A DNA stretch of 11,890 nt from an uncultured Rhodanobacteraceae bacterium (GTDB lineage: Bacteria; Pseudomonadota; Gammaproteobacteria; Xanthomonadales; Rhodanobacteraceae): positions 1-11,890 of the forward strand of contig CAJXGK010000026.1 in NCBI GenBank assembly GCA_913053815.1, read 5' to 3'. Below are positions 1,174 through 10,865 of the stretch, piece after piece. Position 1 is the stretch's first letter, and the number at the start of each line of letters is the position of its first letter. A program made the translations under genes and the position numbers. The notes beneath the pieces were generated by a model. The model saw nothing but the letters and a program-made list of their open reading frames with translations, did not search any database and was not told the DNA's origin.

Positions 1174-1476
1174 TCAATCGAAACAGTGGGTACCGTGGGT
1201 GACGGCGGCCCCGGCGCGCAACGCGGCGGCCACCATCACCGCTTCGGCGATTTCCGCATCGGAGCATCCGGCTTTGCGAGCCCCGTCTACATGGATGTGA
1301 AGGCAATACGGGCATTGCGTCGTGTGGGCCACGGCCAAGGCAATGAGTTCTTTGGTTTTTACCGCCAGTGCGCCGGGGGCCATGGCCGCGGCATCAAAGG
1401 CGGTAAAAGCCGCCATCGCCGTCGGTGCATGTTGGCCCAGTGTTTTCAGGTGTTTGAGGTTGTCGAGGGTGTACAT
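1174..1476 (-). CDS. AhpD-like / carboxymuconolactone decarboxylase family protein with CxxC motif
   Basis: This 100-residue protein of the AhpD/CMD fold is usually a small all-helical oligomer. The diagnostic stretch is E43, then 11 residues, C55-P-Y-C58, then H62. That is the Glu, CxxC and His spacing of the AhpD redox site, although the His that precedes the second Cys in AhpD is Tyr57 here. The start at 1476 is preferred because AAGGAG sits 7 nt upstream; the open frame runs back to 1521 but those residues are low-complexity and overlap the preceding gene. No signal peptide is seen, so the protein should be cytoplasmic. It is the last gene of the operon, 31 bp after the LutH-like receptor. 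A role in peroxide or thiol redox defence is the general family expectation; its role beside a periplasmic dehydrogenase is unknown. It could also be a non-enzymatic CMD-fold protein. Confidence 0.85.
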   Translation of the reverse strand: MYTLDNLKHLKTLGQHAPTAMAAFTAFDAAAMAPGALAVKTKELIALAVAHTTQCPYCLHIHVDGARKAGCSDAEIAEAVMVAAALRAGAAVTHGTHCFD

Positions 1477-1507
1477 CAAGGGTCTCCTTGGGTAGGGGGG
1501 GAAAGGG

Positions 1508-3784
1508 TCACAGCCAGGCATAGCTGACGCCCAGCCAGAGGCCTCGAGGGGCGCCGGGAGCGACGAACTGGGTATTGCTCCAGGCTGTCGGGTTGGGGTT
1601 GAAGCCCCTGTTGGGAGCGGTGAATTCGTTCACTCCCAGCTGTCCGAAATCCGTATAGACTCGGTTGAACAGATTGTGGATAGACAGATTCAGATGCCAG
1701 TGTGACCCCAGTTGGTAGCGTACGCCGAGGTTGACCACGGCATAACCCGGTACCTGGCCGTGGCGGTCTTGATTGTTGGCGTCGCCCTGGGCATAGCGTG
1801 CGCTGTAGGCTAATAAACTGGCGTGCATCCACAGGTGTCGGGTGAACTGGATTTGGCCGAGCAACTTGATATTCCATTCGGGGATGTTGGGCAGGTGGTC
1901 GCCGGCATGCACCTGGATGTTGCCATGGGCTCCGGCCGAGGAATTGCTCGGGCTGAGTTCCAGAAAGGTGGATTGATAGGTGGCCAGAGTGTGGCTGAGT
2001 GAGAGTGTCCCTAGCCAGCGCCCGCGGCCGGCATGCAGATCCAGCGTGAAGGTACGGAATTGTTCTTGGGGGATATTGGTGAAAAAGCCTTGGGTCATGT
2101 TTGCCAGGCTGATGTACTGGATGGCGTGCCGCAATCGAGTGCGGGTGTACTCGGCATGCACCCGCAGCCAGCCCATGTGCCACACCCCGCCCGTCTGCAC
2201 GGTACGAGCGATGACCGGGTGCAAATTGGGATCGGCGACCAGCGCATTGGGCAAGGTACAGGGGGCATTGGGGCTGGCACAGGTCAGCTCCACCGGCATG
2301 GGTACGCGCAGGCCGGCGGCGTAACGAAGATAATATGAGGTTCGGGGTGAAGGATGCAGATCCAGCCCCATGCTGGGGACAAAGCGGAGATAGTTATGGC
2401 GGCCGCCGAGCGCGCCGCCGAGGCGATCAGTCATGTTGATGTGCGTGCGCTGGTAGCGGCCGCCGGCCGTCAGATCCAGCCACGGGGTGGGGCTAAGGCG
2501 ATCGGTGAAGTAGATTCCGCGGTAGCGATTCAGGACCCGCAGATTGGCCGGAGCTTGGTTAAAAGGTCCGATGCCTAGCGTATAGCGTTGGGGCGTAAAG
2601 GTGGCGGCCTGCTGGATTTGCGTGTAGTCGATGCGATCATAATCTACGCTCAGGCCCACACTGGCATGGTTGGGCAGGCCGAACACCACACTGTCGTGAT
2701 GCAGAGCTAGATTCAGACCGTGGCTTTGCTGGTGTAGACCGTTGAGCACATTGTTGGCCACCGGGTTGGCGAGGGTGGGGGGGCGGCCGTCGTAGTCGCC
2801 ATTGACATTGCTGTTGAAGCCGGTCTGATCGCTGTTGCGCAGATACAGCCGCACGGCGACTTGCCAGTGGGGGTTGAGAACCTGGGCATCGCCGAGATTG
2901 AAAAAATTGAGGGCGTTACGGATGATGTCGGGGGCGGTATAAATAACCCGTGGCGTATTGATCCATGCTTGCGGTAGAGTCTGGGACCCGGCCAGCTTGC
3001 TCTGTGCGAAGGTGTAGCTGAAATCGAAATGATTGCCCCCGGTTTGCCGCGTGAGCTTGCCGAACAGGTTGCGGTTTCTGCTAGCACTGAAGGGCGCGAC
3101 CCCGCGCACGTACAGGTTTTGCGCCGCCAGGAGATAACTCCACGGCCCATGGTGGGTGCCGTAGCGGGCCTGCTCGCGGGTGGTGCCGAAGCTGCCGAAC
3201 TCAACGCCCACGTGGCCTCCCGGTGCCGACCAGCCGTTCTGGGTGCGCATAATGATGGCGCCACCGAGGGTGTTGAGGCCAAACACGGGGTCGGTGATTG
3301 GCACCAGATGTAGGGAACGTAGGGCCTCAGTAGGGACGAGATCCCAGTTTACCGTGTCGCCGAAGGGTTCGTTGACCCGGACCCCATCCAGGAACACCGA
3401 CAGCCCTTGGGGGGTTCCCAACAAGGGCGAGGCGGAAAAGCCGTTGAAACGCAGGGTAGGCTGGAGAGGGTTACCCTGCTCATGGGTCAGCGTGATCCCC
3501 GGGAGATGCTCGGCGAGCAGGTCAGGGAAGTCGGTGGCGGACTGCTGTTCCAGGACCTGCGCGGTGATCCCATACGCGTGGGGGGGCGGGCGGCGAAAGC
3601 CTTCGATACTGGTGGCCATGACGTGCACCGTGGGCAATCGCTGGAGCGGCGCGGCCACGGTCGATGCCACGGCGGGTCCCGGAGTGCTCAGAGAGGCGAC
3701 ATCCTGGGCATAAGCGGGGGCCTGCCAGAGCAGGATCAAGCAGGCCGCCGACCCCAGGCGGCCCCATACCCGGGCCGGGCTCAT
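1508..3784 (-). CDS. TonB-dependent outer-membrane receptor, LutH-like (candidate lanthanide-chelate importer)
   Basis: A 758-residue receptor. Residues 1 to about 26 form a signal peptide ending AYA. The plug domain follows (about 50-180), with RFNGFSASP (112-120), GTPQGLSV (123-130), a DGVRVNEPFGD segment (133-143) and VFGLNTLGGA (167-176). A 22-strand barrel makes up the rest. The GTPQGLSV and NEPFGD plug signatures recall the subfamily that includes LutH, the methylotroph receptor for lanthanide uptake; this is from memory and was not aligned. The start at 3784 is chosen because its ATG overlaps the stop of the preceding gene (ATGA). Upstream in-frame ATGs to 3937 would lie inside that gene and add no signal peptide. 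There is no good Shine-Dalgarno, so translation is probably coupled. Receptor function is certain; lanthanide specificity is inferred from the plug and from the neighbouring lanthanide-type dehydrogenase. Confidence 0.93.
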   Translation of the reverse strand: MSPARVWGRLGSAACLILLWQAPAYAQDVASLSTPGPAVASTVAAPLQRLPTVHVMATSIEGFRRPPPHAYGITAQVLEQQSATDFPDLLAEHLPGITLTHEQGNPLQPTLRFNGFSASPLLGTPQGLSVFLDGVRVNEPFGDTVNWDLVPTEALRSLHLVPITDPVFGLNTLGGAIIMRTQNGWSAPGGHVGVEFGSFGTTREQARYGTHHGPWSYLLAAQNLYVRGVAPFSASRNRNLFGKLTRQTGGNHFDFSYTFAQSKLAGSQTLPQAWINTPRVIYTAPDIIRNALNFFNLGDAQVLNPHWQVAVRLYLRNSDQTGFNSNVNGDYDGRPPTLANPVANNVLNGLHQQSHGLNLALHHDSVVFGLPNHASVGLSVDYDRIDYTQIQQAATFTPQRYTLGIGPFNQAPANLRVLNRYRGIYFTDRLSPTPWLDLTAGGRYQRTHINMTDRLGGALGGRHNYLRFVPSMGLDLHPSPRTSYYLRYAAGLRVPMPVELTCASPNAPCTLPNALVADPNLHPVIARTVQTGGVWHMGWLRVHAEYTRTRLRHAIQYISLANMTQGFFTNIPQEQFRTFTLDLHAGRGRWLGTLSLSHTLATYQSTFLELSPSNSSAGAHGNIQVHAGDHLPNIPEWNIKLLGQIQFTRHLWMHASLLAYSARYAQGDANNQDRHGQVPGYAVVNLGVRYQLGSHWHLNLSIHNLFNRVYTDFGQLGVNEFTAPNRGFNPNPTAWSNTQFVAPGAPRGLWLGVSYAWL

Positions 3785-5928
3785 GGAGAAAATGCCCGGG
3801 TAATCTGCACGCCCACCATCGCGTTGCGCCCCGGCGCGGCTTCGAAATAGCGCCCTCGGTGGGCGGCGATGATCACTGCCCCGATGTAGTTTTGGTTCAG
3901 GAGGTTGTCCACGCGCAGAAACTCCGCAACCTGCCATAGGCCGTGGCGCTGCCGGATGCCGGCTACCCAGTTCAGCACGCCGTAACCTTGCGCGGCACTA
4001 CTGTTTTGGGAATCCACAAACACCTTACTGCGCACCAAGGTCGAGAGGGTGCTGTAAAAACCGTGCAGGACGGCGTGTTGGAGGCGCGGACGCCAGCTCA
4101 GCCCCGCATAGAACTGCTGCCGTGGGACCCCCGGCATGACGTTGCCATTGTAAGGCGCCCCCACGAAATGGACATGGATGTAGCTATAGGCCAAGTGCGC
4201 ACTGAAATGTCCGGGTAGCGCCACCTCCATGCTCATATCGGTGCCGTAGCGGCGGGTGCGTCCTGCATTGGTGTAAGTGGTGCGGCCCCCGTGGGAGGCA
4301 TACACCACGATCTGGTTGTCGGTATCGATGTAGAAGACGGATGCATTGATGTGCAGGATACCGAAGTGGCTGCGAAGCCCCACTTCGGCATTGCGCAAGT
4401 GCATAGGTTGCAGGGCGAAGTTCAATCCGGGTTGACCGTTCGGGCGATAGGCCAGCTGATAAAATGTGGGGGTCACGAAGCCATGACCGTAGTCGGCATA
4501 AATCCGGGTCTGGCCACCGACTCGGTACAGAAGACCCAGCACGGGGTCGGTACTGGCGTAACGAGCCCGCCCCCCGGTGCCAGCGCCGAACAGGGCATCG
4601 GCGGCGTTGGTGGAGTTGAAATTGACCTGATCATGGCGTATTCCGCCGCTGACCGACAGGCGGGGAGTGAGGTCCAGGTGACCTTCCATGTACTGGGCAA
4701 AATTATCCACGGTATTGAACTGATCATTACGCAACGTGCCGCGTAGGCCGAACTCATTGACAAAACCCTTGCGGTGTTCGTTCTCACGCGCGTAATCTAA
4801 TCCCGTAGCCAGGGTGTAGGAGTGGGCGGCCACCAAACCACGGTGGGTGAATTCGGTAGTGATGCCGTTGAAATGGTCGAGTAAATCGATCACCCCACCG
4901 GCTGAGAAACCGAAATGACCGGTAAAGGGCAGGTACTGCACAATGTGCCGGGTCCCGGTATAGGAACTCATGCGCAGACTATTGCCGGCATCAAAGCGGT
5001 GGTTCCAAACCAGTCCGGCTTGACGGTTGCGCACGGTCTTGCGGGTGTTGAACTTGAGGATGACCGGGTCCACCTGCCGGGGGTTGTGCTGCAGTTCGGC
5101 CCGGGTGAGCCCGCTGGGATCGAGGGCATCCTGATTCAAGGCATTGAGGACCAGCTTGTAGGAGTTCTCCGAACTGGGATCCCAGCTCAGCACGCCGTTG
5201 AATTGTTTGCGGGTCGCCGCGCTGTGTTGGCGCCAGCCCTCTGTGTGAAAATGGGTGATCCCGGCGAGGCCGCTCCACGCCCCCCTGTGACCGCCGCCGA
5301 CCAAGGTGGTCTGCAGTTTACCGTAGCTGCCCCGCCAAGTACGCAAGGATACCTCGGGAGGGGTGGGCGCAACCCGCGTGTAAGCTTGGATAACGCCCCC
5401 GGCCGCATTGCCATACAGCGCGGCGAAGGGCCCTTCAATGACCTTGATAAGACCGATGGTGGGCAGGTTGATGACCTGCGATTGGCCCCGCCCATCGGGC
5501 ATGGTCAGGGGAATGCCGTCTAAGGTCATGTACACCCCTTGTACACCGAAAGGGGCCTCGGCTCCGAAGCCCCGAATCGATATCTGCAGGTCTTGCGCAT
5601 AGTTGTAACGGTTCTGAACCACCAATCCCGGAATCTGGCGCAAACTTTCCGAGAGATTCACCTGAGGCTTGCCCTGGGTCAGCGCCCGCCGCCCCAGCAA
5701 CATGATGGTCGATGGCAGAGCGACGGCGTCAACACCATATCGAACGCCCTTGACCGTCACGGCAGAAAGCGCCGGAACGGTCCCGGAAACGGCCGGCGTC
5801 GTATGCAAACTCTTCGGCGCTACGTGCCGTGCCTTAGCCCATGCCGGGGCCGTCAAGGCGACCAACAGACCCACGACTGTGAGGTATCTCTGCCATGGCG
5901 GCGCCGCTATGCTACTGGGTTGTTGCAT
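3781..5928 (-). CDS. pqqU: TonB-dependent receptor, PqqU/YncD family (PQQ import)
   Basis: A 715-residue outer-membrane receptor. Residues 1-31 are a signal peptide ending AWA. The plug lies at about 55-185 with SESLRQIPGLVVQNR (93-107), NYAQDLQISIRGFGA (109-123), DGIPLTMPDGRGQS (137-150) and EGPFAALYGNAAGGV (165-179). The barrel includes GGRTTYTNAGRTRRYG and, near the C terminus, RYFEAAPGRNAMVGV. These match what I recall of E. coli YncD, now called PqqU, the high-affinity outer-membrane transporter for pyrroloquinoline quinone. PQQ is the cofactor of the dehydrogenase two genes upstream, so the context fits strongly. The start has a perfect Shine-Dalgarno (AGGAGG) that overlaps the stop of the fusion gene; the stop overlaps the start of the next receptor. 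The signal peptide is homologous to that of the dehydrogenase (17 of the first 32 positions identical, no gaps). Composition is GC-rich, unlike the fusion gene just upstream. Confidence 0.92.
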   Translation of the reverse strand: MQQPSSIAAPPWQRYLTVVGLLVALTAPAWAKARHVAPKSLHTTPAVSGTVPALSAVTVKGVRYGVDAVALPSTIMLLGRRALTQGKPQVNLSESLRQIPGLVVQNRYNYAQDLQISIRGFGAEAPFGVQGVYMTLDGIPLTMPDGRGQSQVINLPTIGLIKVIEGPFAALYGNAAGGVIQAYTRVAPTPPEVSLRTWRGSYGKLQTTLVGGGHRGAWSGLAGITHFHTEGWRQHSAATRKQFNGVLSWDPSSENSYKLVLNALNQDALDPSGLTRAELQHNPRQVDPVILKFNTRKTVRNRQAGLVWNHRFDAGNSLRMSSYTGTRHIVQYLPFTGHFGFSAGGVIDLLDHFNGITTEFTHRGLVAAHSYTLATGLDYARENEHRKGFVNEFGLRGTLRNDQFNTVDNFAQYMEGHLDLTPRLSVSGGIRHDQVNFNSTNAADALFGAGTGGRARYASTDPVLGLLYRVGGQTRIYADYGHGFVTPTFYQLAYRPNGQPGLNFALQPMHLRNAEVGLRSHFGILHINASVFYIDTDNQIVVYASHGGRTTYTNAGRTRRYGTDMSMEVALPGHFSAHLAYSYIHVHFVGAPYNGNVMPGVPRQQFYAGLSWRPRLQHAVLHGFYSTLSTLVRSKVFVDSQNSSAAQGYGVLNWVAGIRQRHGLWQVAEFLRVDNLLNQNYIGAVIIAAHRGRYFEAAPGRNAMVGVQITRAFSP

Positions 5929-5940
5929 TTTCTCCTCCTA
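5929..5940 (-). promoter_or_regulatory. Shine-Dalgarno overlapping the upstream stop codon (translational coupling)
   Basis: On the minus strand the sequence is TAGGAGGAGAAA directly before ATG 5928. TAG (5940-5938) is the stop of the fusion gene and supplies the first bases of a perfect AGGAGG. Ribosomes finishing the fusion protein would be placed on the pqqU initiation site, tying expression of the cytochrome fusion and the PQQ importer together. Confidence 0.8.
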
Positions 5941-7290
5941 GAGTGAGGGAACGGTACCGGGAAAAGCAGGTACATCAGCCTTTGCAGAATCCATGGAATC
6001 AACACTAGGTAGCACACGATCTCTACAAAGGTACCAGGAGCCAGACATAACGCGGCGGGCATTCTCGCAAGCGTGCTGGTCCGTAACAAAGGAATTGAAT
6101 GGTGACGAATCGTTCATTGCATAATATGACGACAACTTTCTACCTGACGGTCTATAACCATTCATGTGTAACAAGTAAGCAAAGATTTCAGTATATTCCG
6201 GTGGCGTCAGTTGCCCAGGCTTGTTTGCAGGCATATTTGTTTTCATGTATTGAAAAATTCCAGCCTTAGTCATTGTAGAATTCAATTTCGGTGCAAATCC
6301 AGGTCCGACGAGAGTAGGGCCAACCTTTCCCTGAATATGAAGCCCATGACATTCAGAACATTCATGTCTAAATAATTTTCTACCTGCAGTAACCTGAGCT
6401 ACTGAAAAAACTGCGATGGATCCCCGCGGGATTTCATGGGGGGAGGGCTTAGGCTTATTCGGTACTATTGAACGTATAGATGAGAGGTTATGAGCCGTAA
6501 GTGTTATCGATGAAGTATGATGGTATAAATTACCAGATCTAATAAGGTTTAATTCCCAAGGTGCAGTAATAGAATGAAGTACACCAGAATTAGAAAGAAT
6601 CTGGATCGCCGAAGAGATTTTTGTCAAGATATAATGATTATTATTGTCGGCTGTAAAGCTTAATTTCCAATTTGACATTTGTGTATGGGTTTTCGATATA
6701 TAAAAATGTATTTGGGGATGAGTATGCTCATAGATAACAAGGGCTGGATACCAAGTGATGCCATATTCAGCTTTTCTAGTAATAACTGCATTAATTACAT
6801 CAGCCGTAGTATCTTCAATATCTGACTCGGCATCATTTTCTTCTATGGCAATCAGCATGGAAGGGCTCTTGTATGCGACCGCAACGAGGTCATGACTTCT
6901 ATTAGCCTTAAATACAGAATCAATACTAAATTTTACAAAATTAACTCTCAAATAGGATGGCGAGATTAATATCTTATTATTAAACTGATGAACATCACTT
7001 GATATAGGTACACCCATAAAGACATTACAAGATTTTTTCAGTAAATCCATTATTTTATATTCAGAACCTGCCTGGAGGTTCAATATGGTGTAGGGTAAAC
7101 CAATTTCCTTAAAAATAGCCCGGGCAATCTTAATATTTACTAAGTGCGTTGGACTTTGTGAGAAAGTACAAACTTTTACGGTATTTATATTAGTATTTGC
7201 ATCGGCATTTACATTATAAAATAAAAAATATAATGAAAAAATACCTATAAAAAAATAATATATTACACCTTTCATAGTATTATATCTCAT
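5938..7290 (-). CDS. Periplasmic MxaJ/XoxJ-like binding protein fused to a C-terminal c-type cytochrome
   Basis: A 450-residue exported protein with two domains. After a signal peptide (1 to about 30, ending VNADA), residues 37-250 resemble the quinoprotein-dehydrogenase-associated substrate-binding family (MxaJ/XoxJ): VKVCTFSQSP (38-47), then C88-NVFMGVPIS (88-97), with C41 and C88 a likely disulfide, then ITWYPALVIYEH (178-189). A linker leads to a cytochrome c domain (about 290-380) with C311-S-E-C314-H315, GPTLVGPGF (324-332) and the candidate axial Met353 in NMPANKPGQL. A 70-residue tail holds two further Cys (408, 422). Expected role: dock on the dehydrogenase and take electrons from PQQ. 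Fused XoxG/XoxJ proteins are known, for example cytochrome cGJ of Methylacidiphilum. The start at 7290 is supported by GAGG 8 nt upstream; Met6 lacks an RBS. The gene is the most AT-rich in the window (8 G/C of 60 in bases 7201-7260), which suggests transfer. Confidence 0.88.
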   Translation of the reverse strand: MRYNTMKGVIYYFFIGIFSLYFLFYNVNADANTNINTVKVCTFSQSPTHLVNIKIARAIFKEIGLPYTILNLQAGSEYKIMDLLKKSCNVFMGVPISSDVHQFNNKILISPSYLRVNFVKFSIDSVFKANRSHDLVAVAYKSPSMLIAIEENDAESDIEDTTADVINAVITRKAEYGITWYPALVIYEHTHPQIHFYISKTHTQMSNWKLSFTADNNNHYILTKISSAIQILSNSGVLHSITAPWELNLIRSGNLYHHTSSITLTAHNLSSIRSIVPNKPKPSPHEIPRGSIAVFSVAQVTAGRKLFRHECSECHGLHIQGKVGPTLVGPGFAPKLNSTMTKAGIFQYMKTNMPANKPGQLTPPEYTEIFAYLLHMNGYRPSGRKLSSYYAMNDSSPFNSFVTDQHACENARRVMSGSWYLCRDRVLPSVDSMDSAKADVPAFPGTVPSL

Positions 7291-7326
7291 TGATATAACC
7301 TCATAACAATAGTTGATTAGAGCTGA

Positions 7327-7350
7327 ATTATACAGTATAGCATGCTGGGG
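7327..7350 (-). promoter_or_regulatory. Possible internal sigma-70 promoter before the fusion gene
   Basis: On the minus strand a perfect -10 hexamer TATAAT lies at 7332-7327, about 37 bp before ATG 7290. The best -35 at 18 bp is GATACA, only 3 of 6 matches. Transcription would start near 7320. This would let the fusion gene and the receptors be expressed apart from the sigma-54 promoter. The match is a weak one in AT-rich DNA. Confidence 0.35.
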
Positions 7351-7459
7351 TGTATCACGTCTGAAATTAGAGGGTTACACATGGGCTCAGATCTAAGAGA
7401 GGTGGTGAAACCAAGTCGGTGCAGAGTTGTCTTCAATACTGGTCAGGTTTAGCAAAGGA

Positions 7460-7488
7460 ATGAAGGGCACCATGAAGGCACCCTTCAT
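7460..7488 (-). terminator. Strong intercistronic hairpin after the dehydrogenase gene (no U-tract)
   Basis: On the minus strand ATGAAGGGTGCC, loop TTCAT, GGTGCCCTTCAT forms a 12-bp stem (two G-U pairs) with a 5-nt loop, starting 30 nt after the dehydrogenase stop. It is not followed by a run of U, so full termination is doubtful. It more likely protects the 3' end of the porin-dehydrogenase message or reduces read-through, giving more dehydrogenase than accessory proteins. Confidence 0.5.
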
Positions 7489-7518
7489 ATTCGTTATTCT
7501 CCATGCGAACTGATAGGC

Positions 7519-9237
7519 CTAGTTGTTAAGACTAAACACGTAAAGTGTTCCACCCCTGGGGACATTTTTGGCGATAGTTGCCATAGGACCACCAAAGAGC
7601 GGAATTACACCACCATATCCTGCAAGAATAGCCACATACTCTTTCCCGTTGACTTTATAGACAGCGGGTTGTGCAACGATTCCACTTGCAAGTTTTGGAC
7701 TCTTCCACAAAACTTTGCCCGTCGTAGTATTAAAGGCGTAGAGATGGCCCCCAAGTGACCCGGAGAAAGAGATGCCAGACGCTGTGGAAGTTACACCCCC
7801 AGCCCATGGCATTTTAGACCACCGTCTCCATACCAGCTTACCCGTATCCACATCAATAGCCTGTAATTCACCATACCCTTTACTACCAGGTTCGGGATAG
7901 AAAACAAAACCTTCACCAAGGTACGGTAGACCGCGCATATAACTCACTTTACTGCCACTGAGTTTCATGCACGCGTGTAGCGTTGGTATCACGGCAATAT
8001 GAGTTACCGGATCATAGCTCATGGACCACCAATTCTTACCACCAAGAGAACTTGGACATGTATTAATCGTTGTTCCAATCTTCGGATAAGCCTTCAGATT
8101 ATTAATAGACTCCCCATTCCTATTATAACCTAGTACTGAGGTAACCTTTACAAGTGGCTTGGCATAAATAAGTTTACCTGTTTTCTCATTGAGGGCAATG
8201 AAAAACCCATTACGATCAGCATGGATTAAGGCATCATAATATTTCCCTTTGTATTTAATTTTTGCTCTGATTGCAGTATTTACACCATCATAATCCCATG
8301 TGTCATGCTGGGTGTACTGGAAGTGCCACTTGATATTTCCATTTGCTGGGTTTAATGCAAGCAATGAGTCTGAATAGAGATTTTTTCCGGGCCGCAACTC
8401 GGCTAGCCAAGGGCTGGGGTTGCCAACTCCCCAAAACAGAGTCTTACTCTGTGGGTTATACGTACCAGTAAGCCAGGCTCCTGATCCCGAATGCAAATAC
8501 ATGCCCTTAGGCCACGTATTGCCATACTTTTCGCTCGGTGATGGAACAGTATACTCCTTCCAAAGTATATCGCCGTTCCCAGCATCTAGAGCAACAAGGA
8601 ATCCTCGGGCTCCAAACTCGCCTCCCGAGGTACCGGTTATAACTTTTCCATCAATTACGAGTGGTGCTGACGTTAGAGCAGATCCAGTACCGGGTTTAAA
8701 TAGTTGTCTCTTCCAGTTAATCTGGCCATTTTGTGCATCGAATGACATAACCTCTCCATTCAACATGGCAATATAAAGATTGTCACCATACAGTGCAACA
8801 CCCCGATTAACAAGATCACAGCACACTGTTTTGAATGCTAACTTTGATATTTTTGGATCATAGTTCCAAATCTTTTTTCCCGTTATCGCATCAAAAGCAT
8901 AAACGTTGTCTTTTGGTGTGGTAACAAACATATAGTTTCCATTAATGATTGGTATTCCTTCGAAACCCTGCGTCAAGTTAGCAGGAAACTTATAGGACCA
9001 AGTCAACTTTAAGCCCTTTACATTCCTCACGTCAATTTGTCCTGCTGGTGAGAAGCTTTTCCCACCATACGAATGGTAATAGGTCAACCATTCACTATTC
9101 TGACCGGCATTATTCAATCTATTCTGTGTCACACTCGGATATTTGGCAAATGCTAGTGGTGTCAATACTACTAGTATCCCTATGGCTGTTAAGTACTTCA
9201 GCCATTTATTCGAAGCCAAGCTTTTTGATTGTTGCAT
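7519..9237 (-). CDS. PQQ-dependent alcohol dehydrogenase, lanthanide-type (XoxF/PedH-like signature), periplasmic
   Basis: A 572-residue eight-bladed propeller quinoprotein. Residues 1-31 are a signal peptide (ending AFA). Key residues: vicinal C139-C140 (the disulfide over PQQ), metal ligand Glu207 in GGEFGARGF, metal ligand Asn273 in GNPSPW, catalytic Asp315 and the extra Asp317 in HDTWDYDGV, and Arg342 in ADRNGFF. Asp317 is the residue that separates lanthanide-dependent enzymes (XoxF, PedH, ExaF) from calcium enzymes such as MxaF, which have Ala there. The C terminus has the usual GKEYVAILAGYGG motif and no cytochrome domain, so it is not a quinohaemoprotein; the cytochrome partner is probably the next gene. 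It oxidises an alcohol to an aldehyde in the periplasm; the substrate cannot be read from sequence, and I do not call it methanol-specific. GGGGAAG precedes the ATG. The gene follows the porin by 31 bp and is moderately AT-rich. Confidence 0.95.
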   Translation of the reverse strand: MQQSKSLASNKWLKYLTAIGILVVLTPLAFAKYPSVTQNRLNNAGQNSEWLTYYHSYGGKSFSPAGQIDVRNVKGLKLTWSYKFPANLTQGFEGIPIINGNYMFVTTPKDNVYAFDAITGKKIWNYDPKISKLAFKTVCCDLVNRGVALYGDNLYIAMLNGEVMSFDAQNGQINWKRQLFKPGTGSALTSAPLVIDGKVITGTSGGEFGARGFLVALDAGNGDILWKEYTVPSPSEKYGNTWPKGMYLHSGSGAWLTGTYNPQSKTLFWGVGNPSPWLAELRPGKNLYSDSLLALNPANGNIKWHFQYTQHDTWDYDGVNTAIRAKIKYKGKYYDALIHADRNGFFIALNEKTGKLIYAKPLVKVTSVLGYNRNGESINNLKAYPKIGTTINTCPSSLGGKNWWSMSYDPVTHIAVIPTLHACMKLSGSKVSYMRGLPYLGEGFVFYPEPGSKGYGELQAIDVDTGKLVWRRWSKMPWAGGVTSTASGISFSGSLGGHLYAFNTTTGKVLWKSPKLASGIVAQPAVYKVNGKEYVAILAGYGGVIPLFGGPMATIAKNVPRGGTLYVFSLNN

Positions 9238-9268
9238 TTTCTTCCCCTACATGGTGGATTTATGTTGA

Positions 9269-10474
9269 TCAGAAGAACAGAATGCCCCCGAAGGCCACTC
9301 CGTTCATCCGCGCGGTATCGCCAGTGAAATCCTTAGATCGAGTCTGACTGAACTCCAAGTCCAGCGTCACGCTCTTAGTGAGTGCGTAATAGGCTCCAGC
9401 GGTGACGTTGCGGTTGGATTTCAAATGACCGGTGCTGGCGAAATTGTCCCGGTTACGGCTGATTCCGCCGCTCAAACCGAGCTTGAGCTTGGGAGTAACT
9501 GCGTACGTTCCCTGTAAAAGATAATTGATTCCCCGGGCGTTACCTTGATCACCATCAGTCAGGATGCCTATCCCGCGTCCAGCTTGAACGTTACCGATCA
9601 GGCTCAGTCCGCCGATCCTAAACGCCGCCCCGATCTCGCCAGCGGTCATGGTAAAGCTTCCTGGCTGTGCGCCGGAGCCACTCAGGGCGTAAAAACGCTG
9701 CGATTTGGCACCGATCCAGGTCCTAAAATGGCCCTGTTTGAAGGTCACCTGCATTTGTACCTGGGGCGCTGATCGTGAGTCGTACTGGCCGGTATTGTTG
9801 ACCGGGCTGAAGACCCCTCCGGTAAAGCTCAGGCCGCCGTGCCCCGGCGTGGTGTAGACAATCTGGCCATAGTTACCCAGATAGGTGTAGCCGGCACCTA
9901 TGTGACCGAGTGATACTCGGCCGCGCTGGGTCGCCTGGATCGGTGCGCCAACCCCCAGCAAGGTCATGTCGCCGAGGATCGCATTGGAGCCGAAGATGCC
10001 GTAATCCCGACCAATCTTGACGGTGCCCAAGTTCGGGCTGGAAAGGGTAAAGAAGGCCTGCCGCACATCGACCCCATTATTCGGTGAGAGTGCATCGGAT
10101 GTGGCGGTTGCCACCATGATACCGATCTGCCCACCAATCTTGATGCCTTCCTGCTCAGTGCTGAACTTGGTGATCACGGCATTCGGTAGCAGGCCGTTGC
10201 CGATCGTCGTGCGGTTACTCTGGCCGCCGCAGCCCAACGCCCGTCCGGCTAAGGCGGCGCCTCCCACTGCGTTACTACCCGAACAGTTCACGGTGGTGTA
10301 AAAGGCGTTGACGTAGCCACTGATGTCCACCTTCCAGTTGTTGCCCTTGATCTCGGTCGCCCCCACCGCCAGAGGGAGGGCTGCCAAGCCCAGTAGGATC
10401 ATGCCCACCGACAGTTTTTGCCGTACCGCTCGGACGCGTTGCCGTGGGCCGCTCTTCCACCTTATCGTTCTCAT
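9269..10474 (-). CDS. Gram-negative porin (general diffusion type)
   Basis: A 401-residue outer-membrane barrel. The signal peptide is long and basic at its N terminus, with core LSVGMILLGLAALPLAVGA. A typical first strand, WKVDISGYVNAFYTTV, follows, then alternating beta-strands with GTVKIGRDYGIFGSN (start of the constriction loop region) and a C-terminal strand ending GGILFF, the terminal Phe recognised by the Bam machinery. Two Cys in the first loop region (64 and 82) may pair. An ATG at 10480 is in frame, but the Shine-Dalgarno AGGAG would then be only 2 nt away; the ATG at 10474 has 8-nt spacing and is preferred. As first gene of the operon, 31 bp before the dehydrogenase, it probably admits alcohol substrate or another small solute (inference). 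Composition is GC-rich, unlike the next two genes. Confidence 0.9.
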   Translation of the reverse strand: MRTIRWKSGPRQRVRAVRQKLSVGMILLGLAALPLAVGATEIKGNNWKVDISGYVNAFYTTVNCSGSNAVGGAALAGRALGCGGQSNRTTIGNGLLPNAVITKFSTEQEGIKIGGQIGIMVATATSDALSPNNGVDVRQAFFTLSSPNLGTVKIGRDYGIFGSNAILGDMTLLGVGAPIQATQRGRVSLGHIGAGYTYLGNYGQIVYTTPGHGGLSFTGGVFSPVNNTGQYDSRSAPQVQMQVTFKQGHFRTWIGAKSQRFYALSGSGAQPGSFTMTAGEIGAAFRIGGLSLIGNVQAGRGIGILTDGDQGNARGINYLLQGTYAVTPKLKLGLSGGISRNRDNFASTGHLKSNRNVTAGAYYALTKSVTLDLEFSQTRSKDFTGDTARMNGVAFGGILFF

Positions 10475-10516
10475 ATTCATCTCTCCTCACTTGTGATTAT
10501 CATGAAACGTACTCAA

Positions 10517-10565
10517 GGCGCCTGGGAATCAGGCGCTACCCATCGCTACCGCCGATGCGGTAGCG
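10517..10565 (-). promoter_or_regulatory. Tandem hairpins with alternative pairing in the porin leader
   Basis: On the minus strand CGCTACCGC (10565-10557) pairs with GCGGTAGCG (10552-10544) across a 4-nt loop. A second GGTAGCG copy (10540-10534) can also pair with CGCTACC. That copy overlaps the 5' arm of the next hairpin, GCGCCTG/CAGGCGC (10536-10530 with 10524-10518). The two states cannot coexist, which is the layout of a structural switch, though the proximal stem should be much more stable. It lies about 45-90 nt before the porin start. Confidence 0.4.
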
Positions 10566-10629
10566 GCTTGACCGTACCTGGGAGACACATGTTCTCCCTA
10601 TGGCCATCAATGCATCGGGGGCGTCAACA

Positions 10630-10704
10630 TCAGAAGAAACCCAGTTTCTTCGGTGAATAACTGACCAGCATATTTTTCGTCTGCTGGTAATGACTCAGCA
10701 TCAT
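10630..10704 (-). CDS. Possible 24-residue leader peptide
   Basis: Starting at ATG ATG (10704), an open frame of 24 codons ends at TGA 10632-10630. The peptide is basic and ends [17 protein letters not shown] (10736-10731) is too far upstream to serve this ATG directly. It could serve a GTG at 10718 that starts a 5-codon frame whose TGA overlaps the ATG (ATGA), giving coupled micro-ORFs. Two hairpins (10664-10688 and 10633-10651) fall inside the frame. It has no resemblance to PqqA, since the conserved Glu-x3-Tyr is absent. It may be chance; the evidence is only position and context. Confidence 0.25.
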
Positions 10705-10752
10705 GAGATGATTCTCACGGCCGATGTTCCTCCTCGCTAAGCCCGCTTGATC

Positions 10753-10777
10753 AAAAACACACGCTTGCCGCAAGCAT
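10753..10777 (-). terminator. Terminator-like hairpin early in the leader (possible attenuator)
   Basis: On the minus strand ATGCTTG, loop CGG, CAAGCGT forms a short GC-rich stem (7 bp with one G-U) followed 3 nt later by TTTTT (10757-10753). It would lie about 62-86 nt after the predicted start. The stem is short for a strong terminator, so partial or conditional termination is the most that can be proposed. Confidence 0.3.
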
Positions 10778-10849
10778 CACCGAACCCCAGCACTTGTATC
10801 GTGGTGGTGCGCAAGCAGATAGGGTCAATAATGATCCTGATATCATCTA

Positions 10850-10865
10850 AGCAATAATCGAGCCA
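10850..10865 (-). promoter_or_regulatory. Sigma-54 (-24/-12) promoter of the porin-dehydrogenase operon
   Basis: The minus strand reads TGGCTCGATTATTGCT. Against the sigma-54 consensus TGGCACG-N4-TTGCW there is a single mismatch (T for A), with GG and GC correctly spaced by 10. Transcription would start near 10839 toward the porin gene. It agrees with the adjacent IHF site and with a sigma-54 activator gene at the other end of the locus. Confidence 0.75.

Follow-up and report, generated by a model that had tools for sequence, protein, structure and literature searches.

How could a bacterium that probably does not make pyrroloquinoline quinone (PQQ) run a PQQ dehydrogenase of the lanthanide type? 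This question is raised by a contig of 11,890 bases (CAJXGK010000026.1, analysed whole and called the window here), which is contig C26 of the draft genome of an uncultured Rhodanobacteraceae bacterium, G000 (2.36 Mb in 437 contigs, 81% complete). Its minus strand holds six real open reading frames that encode, in this order, a porin, a PQQ-dependent alcohol dehydrogenase (ADH), a J-cytochrome fusion, a PqqU-like receptor, a second TonB-dependent receptor and an AhpD-like protein (Table 1). The answer that we consider likely is that these genes form a cassette for periplasmic oxidation of short-chain alcohols around the dehydrogenase, that PQQ is probably not made by the host, that both cofactors are imported and that the block was acquired horizontally. 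It is carried by the identities of the genes and their diagnostic residues, by a neighbourhood that recurs, by the non-detection of pqqC and pqqE and by gene relationships that are incongruent. A sequence-only reading had placed the six genes in this order, each where it was found, and had named a lanthanide-type PQQ dehydrogenase, a J-cytochrome fusion, a PqqU-type importer and a LutH-like receptor; these identities hold up in the comparisons described below.

In the mechanism that we propose, the alcohol would enter probably via the porin, while PQQ would cross the outer membrane through PqqU and the lanthanide through the LutH-type receptor. The dehydrogenase would assemble in the periplasm with its PQQ and metal and oxidise the alcohol there, and the cytochrome c part of the fusion would receive its electrons; the J half of the fusion probably assists activation or docking of the enzyme. 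In the ancestral cluster, the acetaldehyde dehydrogenase ExaC would have taken acetaldehyde to acetate and a sigma-54 activator would have switched the genes on. A Thiomonas-type lineage would have been the horizontal donor of the block of ADH, J, PqqU and receptor genes, which would have entered a locus with exaC, regulator and porin genes of the type of the host family.

The dehydrogenase scores 511 bits against TIGR03075 (PQQ methanol/ethanol dehydrogenase family; cut-off 480), and its best solved match is the quinoprotein ethanol dehydrogenase 6zcv, which we take to be PedH. A second metal-binding aspartate marks lanthanide enzymes. In the window's ADH the motif WDYDG supplies Asp315 and Asp317, the second Asp standing two residues past the catalytic one, and the same residue is present in the PedH and XoxF rows of the alignment and absent from the MxaF row. 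This DYD motif was found in all 45 readable ADHs of the family, the window's included (one fragment was unreadable, and seven non-family quinoproteins listed with them are outside the 45).

The PqqU-like protein matches the E. coli PqqU structures 6v81 and 9c4o (E about 1e-121; about 410 bits to 6v81) and carries F99, K274, R304, R365 and R536 in E. coli numbering. All five residues are kept in the 12 full-length cluster copies, the window's included, and two partial copies show F99 only. The PqqU signature given in PMC12124388, namely Y/F/W99, R304 and R365, is thus present in the window's protein. Import of PQQ is its predicted role. Co-import of a PQQ-metal complex via Glu274 was considered and rejected, residue 274 being Lys in all 12 full-length proteins. 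As a separate observation, the ribosome-binding region and signal peptide of the ADH gene (9237-9130, minus strand) are homologous to those of the PqqU gene (5928-5821, minus strand), with a signal-peptide protein score of 87 against a maximum of 45 in 5000 shuffles. The shared region is AT-rich in ADH and GC-rich in PqqU, and when the PqqU signal peptides of five relatives were compared with the window's, four scored 16-20 and one 41. From these scores, the 5′ end of one of the two genes was seemingly copied onto the other.

Where would the PQQ come from? We searched pqqC and pqqE in 45 genomes (locus L056 is outside the PqqU and pqq counts), and neither gene was detected in G000. PqqU was present in 21 genomes, 18 by profile (E 1e-60) and three, missed by the profile search, from contig-edge fragments (G061, G063 and G068; the G063 fragment is weak, 40 bits), and G078 (L046) was set aside as undecidable, its contig ending inside the J gene. 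Both pqqC and a full pqqE are missing from 15 of the 21 PqqU-bearing genomes and from 0 of the 23 without PqqU, all of which have both genes (Fisher 2e-7, uncorrected for relatedness). When PqqU lies inside the ADH-J cluster, PQQ synthesis is lacking in 13 of 15 genomes, G000 included, and when it lies elsewhere in two of six (Fisher 0.03; G062, with one weak pqqE-like fragment below cut-off, is counted as lacking). Among the 15 lacking genomes, G015, G022, G024 and G035 are 99% complete and G074 is a named isolate, Thiomonas sp. FB-6. The hits in 29 searched genomes serve as the positive control, because 14 control genomes carry no pqqC. The host bacterium probably cannot make PQQ.

The J-cytochrome has a binding-protein domain at its N-terminus and a PF13442 cytochrome c domain at its C-terminus, and both CXXCH and Met353 are invariant in the 17 aligned J-cytochromes. 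The quinoprotein-associated family TIGR03871 (MoxJ_2) is matched by six of the 17 homologues; the window's own protein (P0003) gave no match at the threshold used. On a weak model (mean predicted local distance difference test score of 61), the J domain matches type II binding-protein folds down to E 1.8e-12, and the 50 fold matches listed for it are other binding proteins. The J half probably helps to activate or dock the dehydrogenase. Besides, the window's protein, P0009 and P0010 are extended at the C-terminus by some 45 residues, two of them Cys (window 5938-6075), and the other 14 aligned sequences lack this tail.

As references for the second receptor we used LutH-type receptors that lie beside lanmodulin genes, not the AM1 protein itself. 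Lanmodulin (LanM) was found in 19 of 398 genomes, with a receptor adjacent in three of 13 lanmodulin regions (L085, L086 and L096), and in L086 genes for an ATP-binding cassette (ABC) ATPase, an ABC membrane protein and a binding protein lie upstream, as in a lut cluster. The second receptor and the LanM-adjacent receptors form one clade with 100% support in a 40-sequence tree that had E. coli BtuB, FhuA, FecA, CirA and PqqU for the other receptor families, all five of which fall outside it. Grouping with vitamin B12 or siderophore receptors had been set beforehand as the outcome that would speak against the LutH assignment; with those tried, the receptor did not group.

The neighbourhood itself recurs. 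Scanning named genomes with an alignment of J-cytochromes yielded 41 loci, 40 of them with ADH (the exception, L065, starts inside J), and neighbourhoods were counted in 46 related loci. The order ADH-J-PqqU-receptor, sought across genomes, was found again on other contigs, so it is not a product of chance. Both receptors lie beside ADH-J in six other loci (L029, L031, L040, L041, L098 and L102), so the arrangement is not unique either; in L041, from Thiomonas sp. FB-6, the second receptor sits between J and PqqU. An ExaC-like gene occurs in 17 of the 46 loci, upstream of ADH in six Thiomonas-type and all five host-family loci and downstream in six Burkholderia-group loci. The three ExaC-like proteins tested score above the NF050026 cut-off, and L029 has a DUF779 gene. 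A search of the Protein Data Bank with L104 returned no match at its threshold. Together with the exaC remnant of the window (see below), the ExaC neighbours point to ethanol or a similar alcohol, and the substrate would be a short-chain alcohol, most likely ethanol.

Are the genes transcribed together? They had been described as tightly spaced and as a single operon. The spacing is indeed tight at four junctions (porin-ADH 31 bp, J-PqqU 9 bp, PqqU-receptor -4 bp and receptor-AhpD 31 bp), and it is not at ADH-J, where a gap of 228 bp contains a hairpin of 12 pairs, two of them G-U (-24 kcal/mol, z -3.6; none of 200 shuffles was as stable). In related loci this gap has a median of 67 and a maximum of 129 bp, and none of 50 rows reaches 200 bp (the rows include five duplicates and one artefact, and J starts are estimated). 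Because of the gap and the strong hairpin, a single operon is not established as written, and the AhpD gene, 31 bp behind the receptor, falls outside the conserved set: no match to it was found in the stretches covered of the 46 related loci, and we rejected it as a conserved part of the cassette. There could be two transcription units: the hairpin would end the first, porin-ADH, and the second, J-PqqU-LutH-AhpD, would be driven on its own, in which case enzyme and importers are not co-expressed. We regard this as a serious minority possibility, suggested by a gap and hairpin in which the relatives differ, but the T tail of the hairpin is poor, the terminator scan does not list it among its minus-strand sites (9 sites in all versus 9.4 in shuffles), the scan revealed no promoter-like site in the gap, and the relatives are compact at this junction. 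The hairpin is a candidate attenuator, terminator or processing site, and the cassette genes may be co-transcribed.

The upstream end of the window bears on how the cassette was regulated and on whether the assembly is sound. The interval marked by the sequence-only reading ends at 10865, which is the first base of a sigma-54-type site and not a gene boundary. This site, TGGCTCGATTATTGCT, lies 385 bp upstream of the porin start; when the 844-bp upstream region was shuffled 3000 times, 2% of the shuffles contained a site of equal quality. Sigma-54-type sites lie upstream of ADH in all 24 Burkholderia-group loci, versus 0.10 expected in each, and 75-92 bp before exaC in all six Thiomonas-type loci that hold exaC (9 of 11 positions). 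Downstream of the window's site is the exaC remnant, which is 78% identical to residues 470-506 of the ExaC of L100 (tblastn E 4.9e-14; best E in the reversed-sequence control, 1.3) and matches positions 467-503 of the NF050026 profile with 42 bits. Another contig of the same genome, C230, has exaC and a complete sigma-54 regulator in divergent orientation, as in G015. The sigma-54 gene cut by the contig end (1-834) was for this reason rejected as the obvious regulator; it is 44% identical to the complete one and is probably not the cognate activator. Bases 1-55 of C230 (L122) are exactly window 10657-10711. Such exact identity over 55 bases is the pattern of a branch in the assembly graph, and the window might be a chimera at its upstream end, with the exaC remnant and the gcvT junction as artefacts. 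We hold this to be unlikely: past the 55 bases the resemblance persists for about 18 bases before the sequences diverge, a pattern more in keeping with two strain variants than with a misjoin.

With respect to its origin, the ADH is 68-76% identical to Thiomonas-type proteins and 50-52% to those of the host family, a contrast repeated in J, PqqU and the second receptor. GcvT, at the flank of the locus, is closest to the host family (64-70% identity), less close to the Burkholderia group (58-59%) and least to Thiomonas-type proteins (37-40%), and host-family affinity is also seen in the porin (71% and 59% identical to the ADH-linked porins of G015 and G020) and in exaC (84%) and the regulator (55%) of C230. 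Four genes of Thiomonas type beside porin, exaC and gcvT of host-family type indicate horizontal transfer. No close ADH or porin was found in twelve genomes of the same genus that are 72-99% complete; the simplest reading would be a gain of the locus in this species, with an ADH-J-PqqU-receptor block of Thiomonas type, but its congeners may instead have lost the locus. The GC content at third codon positions is 0.39 in ADH and 0.31 in J, 0.72-0.75 in the receptors and 0.70-0.75 in surrounding genes, and a similar but smaller step at ADH and J is seen in L028-L031, the closest relatives. The AT-rich ADH and J suggest that the block itself may be composite. More tentatively, a mobile, self-contained cassette could let bacteria that do not produce PQQ run a rare-earth enzyme on the PQQ of their neighbours: enzyme, electron acceptor and both receptors would travel together between Burkholderiales and another family, displacing or recombining with resident versions and permitting the loss or absence of PQQ synthesis.

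That the second receptor transports lanthanide is a prediction from its place in the tree. Receptors of one clade may differ in substrate, identity to the LutH-type references is 26-27%, 5044 out of 7998 candidates score above the threshold, and among the 120 matches listed most carry no protein name and two from Paraburkholderia are labelled vitamin B12 transporter BtuB by their source; the true substrate of the receptor might be another metal, a siderophore or a complex of iron with a metallophore, its position beside the dehydrogenase being incidental. This seems improbable to us in view of its fully supported clade with LanM-adjacent receptors, apart from BtuB, FhuA, FecA and CirA, and of its linkage to the same lanthanide-type ADH in several lineages. 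Indeed, a receptor of this clade lies near ADH in eight of 24 Burkholderia-group loci (seven divergent from ADH, one downstream), and PqqU is absent there, being undetected in all 23 Burkholderia-group genomes searched. In nine LanM genomes one or two receptors each match at 115-267 bits and all others at 46 or less.

That the enzyme is a XoxF-like methanol dehydrogenase, and the cassette one for methylotrophy, is very improbable: the lanthanide motif, J and cytochrome partners like those of XoxF systems and a second PQQ dehydrogenase fragment on contig C69 of the same genome (L103, 3-1331; DYD motif, placed with XoxF/MxaF at 97%) would suit it, but in a 24-sequence tree the ADH family forms its own clade outside XoxF/MxaF with 100% support, and its frequent neighbour is an ExaC-like acetaldehyde dehydrogenase, joined in L029 by DUF779.

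Several points weigh against the cassette as we propose it. Substrate, metal transport, electron flow, regulation and co-transcription are predictions from sequence. The ADH has no supported grouping with PedH, to which it is 36.7% identical (deep tree nodes at 27-39%, in a tree with PedH as reference). At about 27% identity, the second receptor is not sister to the LutH-type references within the clade and groups there with Thiomonas-type copies. The matched receptor adjoins lanM in only three of the nine LanM genomes (in G220 as the second-best copy), lying about 20 kb away in two and elsewhere in four. The window's PqqU-like protein (P0004) scores 512 bits against NF041535, the NCBI PqqU equivalog, under the cut-off of 1200, which none of the 45 genomes reaches and the E. 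coli control alone passes. The missing pqqC and pqqE count for less in G000 because the draft is 81% complete, G020 and G061 combine a PqqU in the cluster with PQQ synthesis, and the correlation does not amount to 45 independent events because every one of the 23 genomes without PqqU is from the Burkholderia group. ExaC is unseen in 29 of the 46 loci, some limited by contig ends and others long on both sides of ADH (L034); a sigma-54-type site was found in only one (L101) of five host-family loci in the stretch scanned; and the Thiomonas-type GcvT matches may be non-orthologous.

Each part of the cassette is of a known kind. Like PedH/ExaF of the Pseudomonas putida ped cluster, the enzyme is a soluble quinoprotein with the extra lanthanide Asp and an acetaldehyde dehydrogenase partner (family name ExaC), and it differs in having a LutH-clade receptor and PqqU inside its cluster. 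LutH is required for lanthanum uptake in Methylorubrum extorquens (PMC7391723); its lut cluster resembles the window in the clade common to the second receptor and the LanM-adjacent receptors, whereas in the window neither lut ABC genes nor lanM were found, the lanmodulin query had no match in G000, and the receptor is linked to ADH. A fused XoxGJ is known in Methylacidiphilum (PMC8498564), where a J-type binding protein is likewise joined to a cytochrome c that serves a lanthanide dehydrogenase; here the partner is not XoxF, J is N-terminal and the cytochrome C-terminal. The window's PqqU-like protein keeps the five PQQ contacts of E. coli PqqU (YncD), with Phe in place of Tyr at position 99, and its gene lies beside that of the PQQ enzyme; synteny with PQQ biosynthesis was tested in PMC12124388, and dehydrogenase neighbours were not, as far as the available text goes. 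Co-localisation of a TonB receptor with a lanthanide dehydrogenase has already been published for xoxF3 clusters with XoxJ and XoxG in Acidobacteria, Gemmatimonadetes and Verrucomicrobia (PMC10875860), although the enzyme clade differs and, in the accessible parts, the receptors are not assigned to PqqU or LutH. In the literature searched, itself seen in part, no report was found of a lanthanide-type ADH paired with both a PqqU and a LutH-type receptor, nor was there anything on this cluster in connection with lanthanide and PQQ for Rhodanobacter, Thiomonas or Paraburkholderia. The arrangement had been called unusual, a word that holds only in part because it recurs in two bacterial groups.

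Such a locus offers a genetic handle on how rare earths cross the outer membrane in non-methylotrophs, a route that PMC12997753, in the text available, gives as unresolved for P. putida, strain KT2440 having no LutH homologue. It also offers one on whether PQQ is a shared good, and Thiomonas sp. FB-6, a named organism with the cluster (L041), makes the question testable.

Table 1. Features of the window, with coordinates and the evidence for each assignment.
Feature	Position	Strand	Basis
Sigma-54-type (-24/-12) promoter-like site	10850..10865	-	TGGCTCGATTATTGCT, 10/11 consensus positions
exaC remnant (acetaldehyde dehydrogenase), last 37 codons only	10633..10743	-	tblastn, profile match
Outer-membrane porin, 403 residues	9269..10480	-	homologues, no Pfam match of its own
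PQQ-dependent alcohol dehydrogenase (ADH), 572 residues	7519..9237	-	TIGR03075, motif WDYDG, tree
Hairpin inside the ADH-J gap	7460..7488	-	folding energy versus shuffles
J-type binding-protein domain and cytochrome c fusion, 450 residues	5938..7290	-	PF13442, homologues
PqqU-type TonB-dependent PQQ receptor (predicted), 715 residues	3781..5928	-	structures, residues
LutH-clade TonB-dependent receptor, 758 residues	1508..3784	-	tree with LanM-adjacent receptors
AhpD/carboxymuconolactone-decarboxylase family protein, 100 residues	1174..1476	-	PF02627
Sigma-54-dependent activator, C-terminal part, cut by contig end	1..834	+	PF00158, HTH_8
gcvT start	from 11325	+	upstream end of window

Among the 120 of 1071 porin matches listed, several close homologues carry PF13609, nearly all the named ones are called porin, and the nearest come from Rhodanobacter. 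In G020 (L102) a second porin copy lies away from the cluster. Finally, a 9958-base contig of the same source is given for both a homologue of the J-cytochrome (P0010, 86%) and one of the porin (P0145, 93%), which makes it probable that the porin-linked cluster is also present on a second metagenome contig.

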